Shown here: piece after piece, positions 156-58,957 of the stretch
Layout: each line of letters starts with the position of its first letter
Position numbering within the stretch: the first letter of the stretch is position 1
DNA from: Rubrobacter taiwanensis
Lineage (GTDB): Bacteria; Actinomycetota; Rubrobacteria; Rubrobacterales; Rubrobacteraceae
Reading direction: 5' to 3'
Length of the DNA: 64,000 nucleotides
NCBI RefSeq assembly: GCF_004337705.1
Contig: NZ_SKBU01000020.1
Coordinates: 1-64,000, forward strand
Notes under the pieces: model-generated
Database searches by the model: none
Told to the model about the DNA's origin: nothing
The model's input: the letters and a program-made list of their open reading frames with translations, nothing else
Program-made: the position numbers and the translations under genes

Positions 156-878
156 TTAGGCCACAAGCCCCTCCAGCCCCAGCTCTCCTCCCCGCTCTCC
201 GAGCTCGTCGAGTGCGGCTCTCTCCAGCTGGCGTACCCGCTCGCGGGAGATCCCCAGACTCTCCCCGATGGCCGTCCGGCTCTCCGGCGCGCCGGAGAAC
301 CCGGCGCGCCGGCTCAAGATGGTGCGCTGCCGCTCCGGAAGCGCGGCCAGCGCCTCGGCCAGCCGGCGCCGGGCGTCGTTCCGGGCCGCCACCTCGGCCG
401 GGTCCTCGGCCCGGTGATCCGGAAGCAGCTCCCCAAGCTCGTCTCCGTCCTCCCCGACGAGCGACTCCAGCGAGGCCACCGGCTGCAAAGCCCGGCGCAC
501 CGCCCCGAGCTCCTCGTCCGTCCAGCCCTCCCCCGGCGCCCCGTCGTAGAGCGCCCTCCACGCCCTCTCCGGCACCCTCACCGGCCCCAGCTGCGCCACG
601 GCCGCCCGCCGGATGGCCTGCCGCGCCCACCACGCAGCATAGGTGGAGAACCGCATCTCCCGGCCCGGATCGTAGCTGTTCACCGCCTGCACGAGGGCCA
701 GAGCCCCCTCCTGCAACAGATCATCCAGCGAAACACCCCACCTCCGGGCGTACCTCCGGGCCAAAGCCGCAACCATGCCCAGATTCCCCTCTATAAGCCG
801 CCGCCGGGCAGCCCGGTCCCCCGCAGCCGCCCGCCGCGCCAGACGCCGCTCTACATGCTCGCTCAACACCCCACTCAT
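156..878 (-). CDS. RNA polymerase sigma-70 family factor (group 2/RpoH-like)
   Basis: This 240-residue sigma factor directs core RNA polymerase to a subset of promoters. Region 2 is complete (NLGMVAALARRY, DLLQEGALALVQAV, FSTYAAWWARQAIRRA) and region 4 has the helix-turn-helix RTAIGESLGISRERVRQLE. Region 3 is short and region 1.1 is absent, as in alternative factors. The start is ATG 878, with GGAGGG eight bases upstream; the GTG six bases earlier would lie only two bases from that Shine-Dalgarno. A perfect SigB-type promoter (933-959) precedes it, so it may be part of, or control, a general stress response. It diverges from the clpC-like gene. Confidence 0.9.
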   Translation of the reverse strand: MSGVLSEHVERRLARRAAAGDRAARRRLIEGNLGMVAALARRYARRWGVSLDDLLQEGALALVQAVNSYDPGREMRFSTYAAWWARQAIRRAAVAQLGPVRVPERAWRALYDGAPGEGWTDEELGAVRRALQPVASLESLVGEDGDELGELLPDHRAEDPAEVAARNDARRRLAEALAALPERQRTILSRRAGFSGAPESRTAIGESLGISRERVRQLERAALDELGERGGELGLEGLVA

Positions 879-932
879 AACCACAACCCTCCTGCAGAAG
901 AATCCCTCGAAACCCGGGAATCTGTTCCCTAT

Positions 933-959
933 ATACCCCGTATCAGATCGCTTTTAAAC
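933..959 (-). promoter_or_regulatory. SigB-type stress promoter for the sigma factor gene
   Basis: Read on the minus strand this is GTTTAA (959-954), 15 bases, GGGTAT (938-933), an exact match to the consensus recalled for SigB/SigF-type stress sigma factors (GTTTAA-N12-15-GGGTAT). The expected transcription start near 926 lies inside a GGGAA-TCTG-TTCCC palindrome at 916-929, a possible operator. It gives a leader of roughly 48 bases with the GGAGGG ribosome site. Confidence 0.7.
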
Positions 960-1001: not shown

Positions 1002-1027
1002 GTTTATAAACTGTATTTGAGAGGTAG
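1002..1027 (+). promoter_or_regulatory. Possible SigB-like promoter for the clpC-like gene
   Basis: GTTTAT (1002-1007), 14 bases, AGGTAG (1022-1027) resembles the divergent SigB-type promoter, with one mismatch in the -35 box and two in the -10. The block 940-1030 is the most AT-rich part of the divergent intergenic region, and TAGAAT at 1025-1030 could instead be a housekeeping -10. Co-control of the two divergent genes is an inference. Confidence 0.35.
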
Positions 1028-1101
1028 AATAGCTGTTGTGGCGGGGCGGGGGCTCCGCCGCAGGCGACCGGAGCTGACCTGTAAGAGAGGGAGGTATCAA
1101 A

Positions 1102-3741
<2,640 letters not shown>

Positions 3742-3747
3742 AGCGGC

Positions 3748-4899
3748 ATGGGCAGGTCCTTCAGCCTGGGGCGGTATCTCGGTATAGAGGTGAAGGTCCA
3801 CTGGACCTTCTTCCTGCTCCTGGCCTTCTTCGGGGTCCTGGGCCTCACGCAGACCGGCAGCCCGGCCGGCGCTCTCGCGCTGGCCGGGCTCATCGTGCTG
3901 CTCTTCGTATTCGTGGTCCTGCACGAGTACGGCCACGCACTGGTCGCCCGGGGTCTCGGCTACGAGGTCGAGGACATAGTGCTCCTCCCCATGGGAGGGA
4001 TGGCCCGGCTTAAGACCTTCCCCGAGAAGGCTCTTGACGAGCTGAAGATAGCCATAGCCGGTCCCCCCGTGAACGTGGCCCTGGCGGCCCTCTTCTACGG
4101 CGCGGCCTACCTGTTCTACGGCATCTCTCCCCTCGCCGTCCCGCATCCGGCCGCGCTCGTAGAGGAGGCGGCGGGCTACTTCCTCTCCTATCTGGGCCTG
4201 GTCAACGTCATCCTGGCCGTCTTCAACCTCCTGCCGGCCTTCCCGATGGACGGCGGCCGGGTCCTGAGAGCCTTCCTCTCGACCCGGATGGACCGCGTGC
4301 GCGCAACGGAGATCGCCGCGGCCGTAGGCCAGGCCTTCGCTATCCTCTTCTTCGTGATCGGGCTCCTGACTTTCAACTTGATCCTCACCCTGGTGGCCGT
4401 CTTCATCTTCCTCGCCGCCGCCGGGGAGGCACAGGCCATGCGCCAGCGGGAGCTGATGCGCGGCCTGATCGTCGCGGACGTGATGCGCCGCGGCTCCCGC
4501 ACCGAGACGCTCGCCCCTGAACATCCCTTCGAGCGGGTGCTCGAAGCCCTCATCCACGGCCATCAGGAGGACTTCCCGGTCCTCGACGAGCGGGGAAGGC
4601 TGGTGGGCATGCTCTACCGCAACGACATCTTCGACGCGGCGCGCTCCCGGGAGCACGCCCCACGCGTGGGCGAGCTCATGCGGCGGCGCTTCCCAACCAT
4701 CTCCCCGCAGGCCGACCTGTTCGAGGAGGCGCACCGGCTGCTGCAGGAGAACGACTTCAGAACGCTGCCCGTCTGCGACGGCGAGGAGCTCGTCGGACTG
4801 CTCAGCATGGAGGATCTGGGACAGGCCAGCCTGCTGCGGCGGCTGCCGGTGCGGGGATACGGAACTCTCGGCTCCGGCGGCAGGCGTCCCCAACCTTAA
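3748..4899 (+). CDS. Site-2 protease family membrane metalloprotease (M50) with CBS pair
   Basis: This 383-residue intramembrane zinc protease has HEYGH at 59-63 and the second zinc motif NLLPAFPMDGG with Asp168. Several membrane helices fill residues 20-220, and the C-terminal 240-360 is a CBS-domain pair that usually senses adenine nucleotides. This is the Rip3/SpoIVFB-like architecture. It starts six bases after the clpC-like stop, probably in the same transcript and with a weak ribosome site, linking membrane proteolysis to the unfoldase. The substrate is not evident; anti-sigma factors are the usual targets of the family. Confidence 0.92.
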   Translation: MGRSFSLGRYLGIEVKVHWTFFLLLAFFGVLGLTQTGSPAGALALAGLIVLLFVFVVLHEYGHALVARGLGYEVEDIVLLPMGGMARLKTFPEKALDELKIAIAGPPVNVALAALFYGAAYLFYGISPLAVPHPAALVEEAAGYFLSYLGLVNVILAVFNLLPAFPMDGGRVLRAFLSTRMDRVRATEIAAAVGQAFAILFFVIGLLTFNLILTLVAVFIFLAAAGEAQAMRQRELMRGLIVADVMRRGSRTETLAPEHPFERVLEALIHGHQEDFPVLDERGRLVGMLYRNDIFDAARSREHAPRVGELMRRRFPTISPQADLFEEAHRLLQENDFRTLPVCDGEELVGLLSMEDLGQASLLRRLPVRGYGTLGSGGRRPQP

Positions 4900-4939
4900 C
4901 TTCGTGCTGTAGTGTCATTGAGAAGAGGAGGTGAGAGAC

Positions 4940-5163
4940 TTGCGAAACCGGGTGACTAAAATCGCAGCGAGCACCGAGCTGCGCGGGCAGAGCGAGAAGA
5001 TCGGGCAACTGGTTGAGGCCGCCGGCGAGTGCCGGCCGGTGAGGAGAGCTTCCGCCAGGAGAGACTGGGAACCTCGCTGGTGGTCTCGCCGGGACGGTTG
5101 AGCGAGGGAAGGTTCGCCATCGTCGATCTTCTTGAGGGCGAGGCAGAGGCGAAAGGTCTCTAA
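4940..5163 (+). pseudogene. Small gene apparently broken by a frameshift
   Basis: An excellent Shine-Dalgarno (AGGAGGTGAG, 4926-4935) precedes TTG 4940, which opens a frame ending at TGA 5099-5101 (53 residues; its last 20 are Arg/Trp-rich and look out of frame). A second frame, open from about 5035 to TAA 5161-5163, encodes plausible protein: SFRQERLGTSLVVSPGRL and then an acidic helix ending in GEAEAKGL. Joining the first 30 residues to the second frame gives a sensible protein of about 74 residues, so a one-base shift near 5030-5045 is likely. It could also be two tiny genes or programmed frameshifting. Function not recognised. Confidence 0.4.
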
Positions 5164-5164
5164 A

Positions 5165-5186
5165 GCGGGCGGCGCGCGCCGCCCGC
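5165..5186. repeat. Perfect 22-bp GC palindrome (hairpin)
   Basis: Bases 5165-5175 and 5176-5186 are exact reverse complements. It starts two bases after the TAA of the small broken gene and 25 bases before the next ATG, so it may act as an attenuator or mRNA end between them. No T tract follows. Confidence 0.55.
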
Positions 5187-5210
5187 CGGTCATTCTCAAG
5201 GAGGGGGCCC

Positions 5211-5897
5211 ATGAACGTGGTAGAGATCGCCCAGATCGCCACCCCGATTATCAGCGCGATCTTCGTAGCGGTCATAGGACTGGGATACTACGCTCAAGTG
5301 AGGGTCAGCCGGGAGACGCTGCAGGAGATGCGCGATGAACGCATCGCCGGCAGTCACCCTCAGGTCATAGTCGACGCCGACTACGGCCGCCTGCCACAGG
5401 TCGTCGTGGTCGTGCGCAACGTCGGAGAGGGCGCCGCCAGAGACATCTCGTTCGAGTTCTCGGACCCCGTCGAGAGCTCGGACGGATTCGTCGTCTCGGA
5501 TCTGCCCTACTTCAAGCAGGGGCTGGACTTCCTCGCCCCCGACGGCGAGATCTCAGCCTACTGGGACGACCTCGACTCCCTGGTGCCCCTCTTCAGAGAG
5601 AAGGGCATCACGGGAGGCATCACCGTGACCACCAGATACAAGGACCTGGCCGGCAAATCCTACGAAACCCGCTGGAACCTCAACCCTATCATCTACAAGG
5701 ACCACCGCTACGTCCAACGCCAGAGCATAGAAAGCCTCGTCCAAAGGATGGACCGGATGATCGATAACCTCGAAAGGATCGCAACCGCCCTGGAGAAAAC
5801 CACCCCGCCCCGAATACCCGCCGGAGGCCAGCGCCACCGGAGAGAAACCCCCGGCGGCGATAACCGGCAGGCCAGCGCCCCCACCCCCGGAACGTAA
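5211..5897 (+). CDS. Hypothetical membrane-anchored protein
   Basis: 228 residues. It has one N-terminal membrane helix (about 10-30, IATPIISAIFVAVIGLGYYA), then a predicted beta-rich soluble domain (about 50-170; VRNVGEGAARDISFEF recalls an Ig-like fold), an amphipathic coiled helix (SIESLVQRMDRMIDNLERIA, 178-197) and a proline/arginine-rich tail. AAGGAGG lies just before ATG 5211. I do not recognise the family. The context between the site-2 protease and a Lon-like protease hints at a membrane stress role, but nothing in the sequence proves it. Confidence 0.7.
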   Translation: MNVVEIAQIATPIISAIFVAVIGLGYYAQVRVSRETLQEMRDERIAGSHPQVIVDADYGRLPQVVVVVRNVGEGAARDISFEFSDPVESSDGFVVSDLPYFKQGLDFLAPDGEISAYWDDLDSLVPLFREKGITGGITVTTRYKDLAGKSYETRWNLNPIIYKDHRYVQRQSIESLVQRMDRMIDNLERIATALEKTTPPRIPAGGQRHRRETPGGDNRQASAPTPGT

Positions 5898-6010
5898 GAA
5901 GAGAACGACCACACCGGGCGCCCGGCCCTTTCCCCTGCTCCGGTGCGGAGGTATGCCGGCGGGTCTAAAATACCGTTTGCGCGCGAGTTTTCAGGGAGGT
6001 GTGGAGCCGC

Positions 6011-8437
6011 ATGGCCAACCGGGGGTTAGACGCGGAGCAGCTCTACAGGCGGTGTGTGCCCGAGAGCCTGCCCTTTGAGACCACGGCCGAGGTGGAGCCT
6101 CTGGAGGACGGGCGGCTGGGTCAGTCCCGGGCCGTTCAGGCTCTGAGGTTCGGGGTGGGCATAGAGCATCCGGGCTACAACATATTCGCCCTCGGGCCGC
6201 CCGGGACGGGCAAGTTCCCTCTGGCCCGGCACTTCCTGACTCGCCGGGCCGAGAGCCGTCCGGCGCCTCCTGACTGGATCTACGTCTACAACTTCGAGCA
6301 TCCGGAGAGGCCCCGGGCGATCCGGCTTCCGGCCGGCATGGGGCTTCGGCTGCGCCAGGACATGGAGCAGCTGGTGGAGGAGCTGCGCCCGGCGCTCTCC
6401 AGCGCGTTTGAGAGCGAGGAGTACCAGGCGCGCCGCCAGGCGATAGAGGAGGAGTTCAGGGAGCGTTCCAACCGGGCCTTCACGGAGCTGCGGCGGAAGG
6501 CTCAGGAGAGGGGGCTGGCTCTGCTGCAGACCCCGATGGGATGGGTCTTCGCTCCGCTGCGGGGCGGGCAGGTGCTCTCTCCGGAGGATCTGCAGGCGCT
6601 GCCCGAGGCGGAGCGCCGCCGGATCGAGGAGGAGGTCGAGCGGCTGCAGCAGGAGCTGCAGCAGGTTCTCGCCCAAATGCCGCGCTGGCAGCGAGAGATG
6701 CAACGGAGCCTCCGGGAGCTGAATCGGGAGGTAACCAACTTCGCCGTCGGGGCCCGCATAGAGGATCTGCAAGAGAAGTACGCGAAGTTCGCTGCGGTGG
6801 TCGAGCATCTCGACGCGGTGCGGCGGGACATCGTGCGGCATGCGCGGGAGTTCCTCTCTTCCGGCGGCGAGGCTCAGGAGCCGGCCGGGGGCGACCGTTC
6901 CCAGCCGCCCCCGGCCCGGCGCTACCGGGTCAATCTGCTGGTGGACAACTCCGAGACCGATTACGCCCCGGTAGTCTACGAGGACAATCCGACCTACCAG
7001 AACCTGCTCGGCCGGGTGGAGTACGTCTCTCAGATGGGAGCGCTGATCACGGACTTCAACCTCATCCGGCCGGGGGCTCTGCACCGGGCCAACGGGGGGT
7101 ACCTGATCCTGGACGCCCGCCGGCTGCTTACGCAGCCCTTCGCGTGGGAGGGGCTCAAGCGGGCCCTCCGCTCCCGGCAGCTGCGCATCGAGTCGCCCGG
7201 GCAGGCGATGGGGCTCATCAGCACCATCTCGCTGGAGCCGGAGCCCGTGCCGCTGGACGTGAAGGTGGTGCTGCTCGGCGACCGGCTGCTCTACTATCTG
7301 CTCTCGGCTCTCGATCCGGAGTTCGGGCAACTCTTCAAGGTGGCCGCGGACTTCAGCGAGGAGCTGGAACGCACCGAGGAGAACCAGCTCCTCTACGCCC
7401 GGCTCATCGCCGCGATAACCCGGCGGGAGGGGCTCATGCCCTTCGACCGCACCGGGGTGGCTCGGATCATCGAGCACACCTCGCGGCTGGTCGGGGATGC
7501 GGGCAGGCTCTCCATACACCTGGAGAGCATCGCGGAGGTTCTGCGAGAGTCCGACTACTGGGCGCGGGAGAACGGCAACGGCGCGGTCACCGCCGCGGAC
7601 GTGCAGCGGGCCATAGACGCCCGCATCCGGAGATCCGACCGCCTGCGGGAGCGCATACAGGAGGAGATCCTGCGGGGCACGATCCTCATAGACACCGCCG
7701 GAGAGCGGGTGGGTCAGGTCAACGGTCTCTCCGTCATAGAGCTCGGCGGCTTCGCCTTCGGGCGCCCGAACCGCATCACCGCCCGGGTCCGCCTGGGACG
7801 GGGCGAGGTGGTGGATATCGAGCGGGAGGTGAAGCTGAGCGGCCCGATACACTCCAAGGGCGTGCTCATACTCGCCGGATTCCTCGGGGCCCGTTACGCC
7901 TCCGAGCGGCCACTCTCCCTCTCCGCCAGCCTGGTCTTCGAGCAGAGCTACAGCGGGGTCGAGGGGGATTCGGCATCCTCGGCGGAGCTCTACGCCTTAC
8001 TCTCGGCGATCGCGGGCGTACCGGTGAAGCAGTCGCTTGCGGTCACCGGCTCCGTGAACCAGCACGGGGACATTCAGGCTATCGGGGGCGTGAACGAGAA
8101 GATAGAGGGCTTCTTCGACATCTGCCGCGAGCGGGGATTGACCGGGGAACAGGGGGTAATAATCCCGGCTTCTAACGTGCAGCACCTGATGCTGAAGCAG
8201 GAGGTAGTCGAGGCCGTCCGAGCCGGGCGCTTCCACGTCTATCCGGTCGAGCGGGTCGATGAGGGTATAGAGCTGCTGACCGGCCTCCCGGCCGGGGAGC
8301 GGGATGAGAGCGGCGGCTACCCGGAGGGTACGGTCAACGGCATGGTCGAACGGCGGCTGGCGGAGCTGAGCAGGAAGCTGCGCCAGAGCTCGCCGCCGCG
8401 CGCTCCGGAGGAGAGCGAAGAGGAGGAACAGCGATGA
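6011..8437 (+). CDS. Lon-family ATP-dependent protease (LonC/YcbZ-like)
   Basis: This 808-residue AAA+ serine protease is expected to degrade misfolded proteins in the cytosol. The Walker A GPPGTGK lies near residue 62, close to the N terminus as in the LonC/YcbZ-type branch. A long coiled-coil insertion spans about 120-290 and a divergent AAA core follows. The C-terminal Lon protease domain has the catalytic dyad Ser654 (EGDSASSAE) and Lys697 (GGVNEKIEGFFD). I chose ATG 6011, about ten bases after GGGAGGTG; GTG 5999 overlaps the ribosome site. TAAAAT at 5966-5971 may be its -10. Its stop overlaps the start of the universal stress protein gene (ATGA). Confidence 0.9.
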   Translation: MANRGLDAEQLYRRCVPESLPFETTAEVEPLEDGRLGQSRAVQALRFGVGIEHPGYNIFALGPPGTGKFPLARHFLTRRAESRPAPPDWIYVYNFEHPERPRAIRLPAGMGLRLRQDMEQLVEELRPALSSAFESEEYQARRQAIEEEFRERSNRAFTELRRKAQERGLALLQTPMGWVFAPLRGGQVLSPEDLQALPEAERRRIEEEVERLQQELQQVLAQMPRWQREMQRSLRELNREVTNFAVGARIEDLQEKYAKFAAVVEHLDAVRRDIVRHAREFLSSGGEAQEPAGGDRSQPPPARRYRVNLLVDNSETDYAPVVYEDNPTYQNLLGRVEYVSQMGALITDFNLIRPGALHRANGGYLILDARRLLTQPFAWEGLKRALRSRQLRIESPGQAMGLISTISLEPEPVPLDVKVVLLGDRLLYYLLSALDPEFGQLFKVAADFSEELERTEENQLLYARLIAAITRREGLMPFDRTGVARIIEHTSRLVGDAGRLSIHLESIAEVLRESDYWARENGNGAVTAADVQRAIDARIRRSDRLRERIQEEILRGTILIDTAGERVGQVNGLSVIELGGFAFGRPNRITARVRLGRGEVVDIEREVKLSGPIHSKGVLILAGFLGARYASERPLSLSASLVFEQSYSGVEGDSASSAELYALLSAIAGVPVKQSLAVTGSVNQHGDIQAIGGVNEKIEGFFDICRERGLTGEQGVIIPASNVQHLMLKQEVVEAVRAGRFHVYPVERVDEGIELLTGLPAGERDESGGYPEGTVNGMVERRLAELSRKLRQSSPPRAPEESEEEEQR

Positions 8438-58427: not shown

Positions 58428-58537
58428 AGAACGCACCTCTCTCCCTCGGGGAAGATTCCTCGACGATAGTGAAGAATAAACCACCCGCACCCCTAACGCT
58501 GTGAAAAGTTTCTGCGGAGCCCTCTCAAAAGAGAAAG

Positions 58538-58957
58538 CGCCCGGCCGCCCCGTAAGCCGGATTCTGTTCTATCCCGCCATCCATCTCCGGGAGGCCGTCC
58601 CCCCGGGCCTCTCTGAGAGAGGCCGCGCCTACCAGTCCGGAATCTTCCGGACAATTTGGCTTGCTCGCACCGGTAGTTTACCTGGCCGGTCCCTCACGGG
58701 ATACCGCCGGTGGGCTCTTACCCCACCCTTTCACCCATCACCTGTGCCCAGGGAAACTCCCCCGGGCCATCGGCTGGTCTACTCTCTGTTGCACTTGACG
58801 TGGCGGCGGGCTTGCGCCACACCGCCCCTCAGGTTGTTAGCCTGAGCGGCCTTTCCGGACCCGGATGTCTCCACCCGGGCCCTCGCGAGTCCGGACTTTC
58901 CTCTGCACCCGCCGGAGGCGGGCACAGCGGCGGGCCGGACGGCCGGGCGTTTTCCAT
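58538..58957 (-). ncRNA. rnpB: RNase P RNA, class A
   Basis: About 412-420 nt on the minus strand. The two ends pair perfectly over ten bases (58940-58949 with 58538-58547), forming P1. Universal elements are present: GAGGAAAGTCCGGACTC near the 5' end, AGTGCAACAGAGAGTAGACC, the GGTGAAAGGGTGGGGTAAGAGCCCACC block (P10-P12 side), GGTAAACTACCGGTG, and the 3' terminal AGAATCCGGCTTAC. The RNA matures tRNA 5' ends, and the gene's own -10 is visible. Confidence 0.96.

Follow-up and report, generated by a model that had tools for sequence, protein, structure and literature searches.

An exact SigB/SigF-type promoter motif ahead of a sigma factor gene

Which signal switches on the sigma factor gene near the start of the window (the whole stretch of DNA that was analysed, 64,000 nucleotides), and does the divergently transcribed chaperone-type gene beside it answer to the same signal? 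The first part of the question concerns two features.

156..884, minus strand: group-2 (RpoS/RpoD-like) sigma factor gene, assigned from NCBIfam, Pfam and ortholog and paralog alignments
933..959, minus strand: SigB/SigF-type promoter, -35 GTTTAA at 954-959 and -10 GGGTAT at 933-938, an exact match

The promoter reads GTTTAA-N15-GGGTAT without a mismatch, 49 bp upstream of the sigma gene, and none of 100 shuffles of the 64-kb window contains such a sequence. The pattern GTTTAAN13-17GGGTAT has three matches in the 3.04-Mb genome, compared with one for a reversed-pattern control. Of the other two exact matches, one is followed at 66 bp by a gene judged by eye, without a family scan, to be malonyltransferase-like, and the other at 43 bp by a dodecin gene. 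A scan for sigma-70-type promoters made no prediction at 933-959, and an Rfam scan returned no RNA element near this promoter.

SigB and SigF promoters built in this way are amply documented in the available excerpts of three papers (PMC9847131, PMC7390352, PMC8346170). The Bacillus subtilis SigB consensus is given there as GTTTAA-N15 +/- 2-GGGTAT, and the window site matches it exactly, with its spacer inside the permitted range; N14 is described as optimal and longer spacers as giving mild induction, while the window spacer is N15 (PMC9847131, excerpts). The site likewise fits the spacing rule of the mycobacterial SigF regulon, GTTT-N15-17-GGGTA, as an exact GTTT-N17-GGGTAT, and is like the mycobacterial promoters in -35, -10, spacing and sigma family (PMC7390352, excerpts). 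It differs from that regulon in what it precedes, a group-2 sigma gene with a ClpG-like neighbour, and in that no rsbW was recognised beside sigF. The preliminary description of this DNA, which had placed an exact SigB-type promoter in front of an alternative sigma factor, is thus upheld in both respects: the motif is exact and the downstream gene does encode a sigma factor. The switch at 933-959 is probably real and of a well-known kind.

If the last base of GGGTAT occupies its usual position at -7, transcription would start near 926, within a further feature.

916..929, no strand: palindrome GGGAATCTGTTCCC, spanning the predicted start near 926

This palindrome occurs once in the window against an expectation of 0.05, so the earlier observation that transcription would begin in a GGGAA/TTCCC palindrome stands as far as the existence of the sequence goes. 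A role for it is not supported. The palindrome is found upstream of none of the six other orthologous sigma genes, which rules it out as a conserved operator, and it is therefore probably incidental.

The sigma factor gene and its orthologs

The product of 156-884 is a sigma-70 factor of 242 amino acids whose closest models are RpoS and RpoD. It fails the SigB/SigF/SigG family model TIGR02980, with 73 bits against a cut-off of 234. Translation probably begins at the ATG at 878, since AGGAGG lies about 9-10 nt upstream. Close orthologs were identified by tblastn in six other genomes among the 60 searched (57–60% identity), all belonging to the window's own family. More distant sigma factors at 80 loci from named-genome contigs (31–42% identity) were considered as orthologs and set aside. 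In the alignment, region 3 of the window sigma is about 20 residues shorter than in all six orthologs, consistent with a Pfam region 3 match that begins only at profile position 32. A group-2 sigma paralog in the same genome (L014 1375-2094) has a similar gap; the stretch missing from these two proteins is kept by orthologs or other paralogs.

Across the seven orthologous loci, the window included, GTTT is present in 7/7 and RGGTAT in 6/7, while the spacers have diverged. The individual -10 variants are AGGTAT (five promoters), GGATAT (one) and GGGTAT (the window only). The chance of finding GTTT-N15-17-RGGTAT is at most 0.0024 in each of the five 200-bp regions tested, a figure for a pattern whose first -10 base was relaxed to R only after the orthologs had been inspected. 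AGGTAT at the same spacing is not enriched in 15 family genomes (45 versus 47), and a private AGGTAT-type regulon was rejected on that ground.

The same lack of family-wide enrichment would suit a different reading, in which 933-959 serves housekeeping sigma-A as a weak promoter, with the sequence TTTAAA-N17-TATATA, and its likeness to a SigF site arises by overlap or chance. Four of six bases agree in each hexamer at ideal spacing, and in most orthologs TATATA, TATCAT or TATACA follows the GG. However, the sigma-70 scan passes over the site, and conservation falls on GTTT and on the GG that precedes TAT, neither of which sigma-A needs. The enrichment of the SigF-type code in the window's own genome, described below, also speaks against a housekeeping promoter, and we regard this explanation as unlikely.

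The SigF-type code across the genome and the family

Matches to the relaxed pattern GTTT-N16/17-GGGTAW were counted and compared with two controls, the reversed pattern and a wrong spacing of N21/22. The window's own genome has 22 matches, against four at the wrong spacing and four reversed. In 23 family genomes the right-spacing, wrong-spacing and reversed counts are 298, 157 and 90, whereas in 14 genomes of other families the right-spacing and reversed counts are about equal (83 and 86). We judged the background by the wrong-spacing figure because the reversed control understates it (90 versus 157 in the 23 family genomes). Chance accounts for about half of the matches in the family as a whole, as 298 against 157 implies; the proportion is far lower in the window's own genome and in the relatives G019 (18 right-spacing versus 4 wrong-spacing) and G008 (14 versus 3). 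Enrichment is not universal in the family, some genomes lacking it (G002 has 11 right-spacing and 18 wrong-spacing matches). Genomes with the window sigma show 109 versus 37 and those without it 189 versus 120, and several of the latter show no GGGTAW enrichment. These counts, like those for AGGTAT, weigh against an unqualified SigF reading. In several genomes one match is GTTTACGGCTAGGACTACCAGGGTAT, which we take to be the antisense of 16S rRNA; it was excluded only from the own-genome Poisson figure (21 versus 4).

Using a purpose-written gene caller based on codon usage, 15 of the 22 own-genome matches were found to be intergenic, with a same-strand gene beginning no more than 250 bp downstream. 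A genome scan for the motif ahead of stress genes had been proposed as a check on the original claim, and the sites do precede genes for ferritin-like, BON, RsbW-like ATPase and DksA/TraR zinc finger proteins, as well as a metallo-beta-lactamase-fold protein and another sigma factor (all Pfam) and an F420-dependent oxidoreductase (NCBIfam). Four downstream families are common to this genome and G019, for which the chance is approximately 3e-7 assuming 3000 genes per genome.

A group-2 sigma gene other than that of the window lies behind such a site in four of six genomes compared (the window's own, G008, G010 and G019), a comparison that covers only part of the matches for three genomes: all 18 were covered in G019, and only the six with loci in each of G009, G003 and G010. 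Overlapping loci also repeat sites in it, so that G008 counts 16 where 14 are real and G010 counts 8. Because a non-window group-2 sigma gene is targeted in four genomes, a relay from SigF to a group-2 sigma factor may recur across the family, and group-2 sigma genes appear to be repeated SigF targets there. At three loci in G019 and G008 (L291, L269 and L274), a group-2 sigma gene stands back to back with an hsp20 gene, both with GTTT-N16-GGGTAA; this is the layout of the window at a different locus.

A candidate for the cognate factor is encoded in the same genome. The sigma factor at G000:C6:92747-93508 scores 264 bits against the SigB/SigF-family cut-off of 234, and orthologs at 72–81% identity occur in 21 of 23 family genomes, counting the own copy and one split across two contigs. 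The two genomes in which no ortholog was found have assemblies 77% and 60% complete. No rsbW gene was recognised beside sigF, and Pfam finds nothing in the small preceding gene. When 11 sigma factors of this genome were aligned, a SigB/SigF-type region 4.2 (SQMHVSRLM) was seen in the SigF protein alone; the window sigma has the sigma-A pattern ISRERVRQLE at this position. Recognition of the -35 element follows from the region 4.2 pattern, and the window sigma is therefore not expected to read GTTT itself.

One could suppose that some other sigma-70 paralog reads the GTTT-N-GGGTAW promoters of the family. The genome has many such paralogs, and G006, the 77% complete assembly in which no SigF ortholog was found, has eight matches versus one at the wrong spacing. 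The restriction of the SigB/SigF-type region 4.2 to a single protein argues against this, as does the fit of the published consensus to SigF in the available part of PMC7390352, and the idea has very little to recommend it. With a cognate sigma encoded, the motif enriched at the right spacing, general-stress genes downstream and conservation at orthologs, the assignment of 933-959 to the SigB/SigF class is reinforced.

We therefore favor, with a probability of roughly 0.7, a model in which 933-959 is a SigB/SigF-type promoter from which SigF passes the general-stress signal on to a group-2 sigma factor of a second tier. General stress would free SigF, and SigF-RNA polymerase would initiate near 926, about 48 nt before the ATG of the sigma gene. 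The product would act as the second-tier factor and then serve sigma-A-like promoters; its -35-reading helix is still of the sigma-A type, so that the response would be extended to such promoters and the factor would not read its own. We infer from sequence the reading of 933-959 by SigF, the start point, the stress induction and the targets of the second sigma.

Our searches of an open-licence literature collection turned up no account of either a SigB/SigF regulon or an hsp20 promoter in Rubrobacter; the available portion of one paper reports work on WhiG-RsiG with start-site mapping (PMC8325347). The matches described here provide an outline, from sequence, of a general stress regulon in the window's family. 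The Rubrobacteraceae are known for heat and radiation hardiness.

A probable separate heat-shock element before the divergent gene

The divergent gene appears to have a promoter of its own.

1002..1030, plus strand: hsp20-type heat-shock promoter element ahead of the neighbour gene, GTTTATAAACTGT-N8-GGTAGAAT, from pattern matches and the sigma-70 scan
1102..3741, plus strand: ClpG-like Hsp100 ATPase gene with a TTG start, from profile matches and ortholog linkage

The preliminary description had noted a weaker SigB-type match here and suggested that stress-sigma control perhaps extends to this gene. The match is present (GTTT-N16-AGGTAG at 1002-1027), within a promoter that reads AAAAACATGTTTATAAACTGT-ATTTGAGA-GGTAGAAT with GTTT at 1002. 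The pattern GTTTNNAANNTGTN8-9GGTA, built from the window promoter and some relatives and chosen after about seven promoters had been inspected, occurs 21 times in 36 family genomes and not once in 24 others, while its reverse has a single match in all 60. Fourteen of the 21 lie 5–71 bp before an hsp20 gene, such genes being identified by resemblance to those at L050 and L052 and not by a family scan, and one is that of the window ClpG-like gene. Of the remaining six, two are 257–263 bp before a MerR-type gene, and for the other four the next 400 bp downstream contain no gene. The element is found at window positions 1002-1030 and at L311, L314, L317, L318, L320-L323, L325 and L327-L331. The consensus of 13 distinct hsp20 sites is.aAAAa.TGTTTgaAAaCTGT-N8-GGTAtAATg. 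At L315 and L316 (G016 and G004) the sequence GTTTACAAGCTGTAGCGAGCGGGGTAATAT is the one preceding the gene for the MerR-type regulator, which may thus be another gene that uses the element.

The -10 of the element resembles TATAAT, and the sigma-70 scan predicts no promoter in the region other than the window copy. For these reasons we take 1002-1030 to be a separate heat-shock element and not a weak SigF site, although the GTTT and GGTA common to both types leave a SigF reading some plausibility. Given a family-wide hsp20-type element with a sigma-A-like -10, SigF control of the divergent gene is doubtful. The gene would instead respond to the heat-shock element in front of it, at a distance of 42 bp from the SigF-type promoter. 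Known heat-shock operators were sought in 14 hsp20/clpG promoter regions, each as one simplified consensus, and rejected: mismatches number at least 7 for CIRCE, at least 5 for HAIR, at least 5 for RheA and 3–6 for CtsR.

As a tentative proposal, against which the odds lie slightly, the 217-bp divergent region may carry two stress codes back to back, a SigF-type relay promoter and a TGTTTnnAAaCTGT-N8-GGTATAAT element read by an undescribed regulator. Such a regulator would perhaps bind two TGT repeats one helical turn apart. Being compact and found only in the window's family among the 60 genomes, the hsp20 promoter element offers a handle on heat-shock gene control.

It is also conceivable that the window sigma reads two promoters, its own and the one before the ClpG-like gene, forming a small autoregulated heat-shock circuit. 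The clpG-like gene is present in 7/7 sigma-bearing genomes but in only 1/16 family genomes without the sigma (Fisher 3e-5, uncorrected for kinship), GTTT and GGTA are common to both promoters, and in G008 the sigma promoter is the sole AGGTAT match of the genome. However, region 4.2 of the window sigma follows the sigma-A and not the SigF pattern, and both promoter classes are present in family genomes that lack this sigma. The hsp20-type element, for example, is found in G002, G009, G011 and G030, among others, which shows that it does not depend on the window sigma. We consider such a circuit improbable, and retain the relay from SigF as the preferred explanation for 933-959.

The ClpG-like gene and its surroundings

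The neighbour had been called clpC-like, which is doubtful. A ClpC is recognised by an L/I-G-F loop for ClpP docking in the second AAA domain, and no such tripeptide occurs between TSNLG and RPEFINRID in this protein. Its first 130 amino acids match ClpG and ClpK models only, and there is a CxxC...CxxH stretch at the N-terminus. It is thus similar to the stand-alone disaggregase ClpG in its N-terminal 130 residues, in the lack of a visible ClpP loop and, in relatives, in an adjoining hsp20 gene, and it differs in missing the NCBIfam cut-off for ClpG (973 bits versus 1900).

The ATPase gene occurs in 8 of 37 genomes, the seven with the window sigma and G004, and also in G030, which lies outside that set. 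In all seven genomes that have the sigma gene the two are linked. In the six relatives an hsp20 gene immediately precedes the sigma gene in the same orientation, with a ClpB/ClpC-like ATPase gene nearby. The hsp20 gene directly precedes the ATPase gene in G010, G008, G019 and G004 and is one small gene further upstream in the other three. In the window this hsp20 gene is missing, and the ATPase gene stands directly behind the hsp20-type promoter. A ClpG-like ATPase and, in relatives, hsp20 as neighbours suggest a role in rescuing proteins after heat or drying.

Protein-quality-control genes continue downstream of the ClpG-like gene, where window positions 3748-8437 encode an M50 protease that carries CBS domains, along with a LonB-like protease. 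Elsewhere in the window, Rfam identifies a class A RNase P RNA at 58537-58946 on the minus strand.
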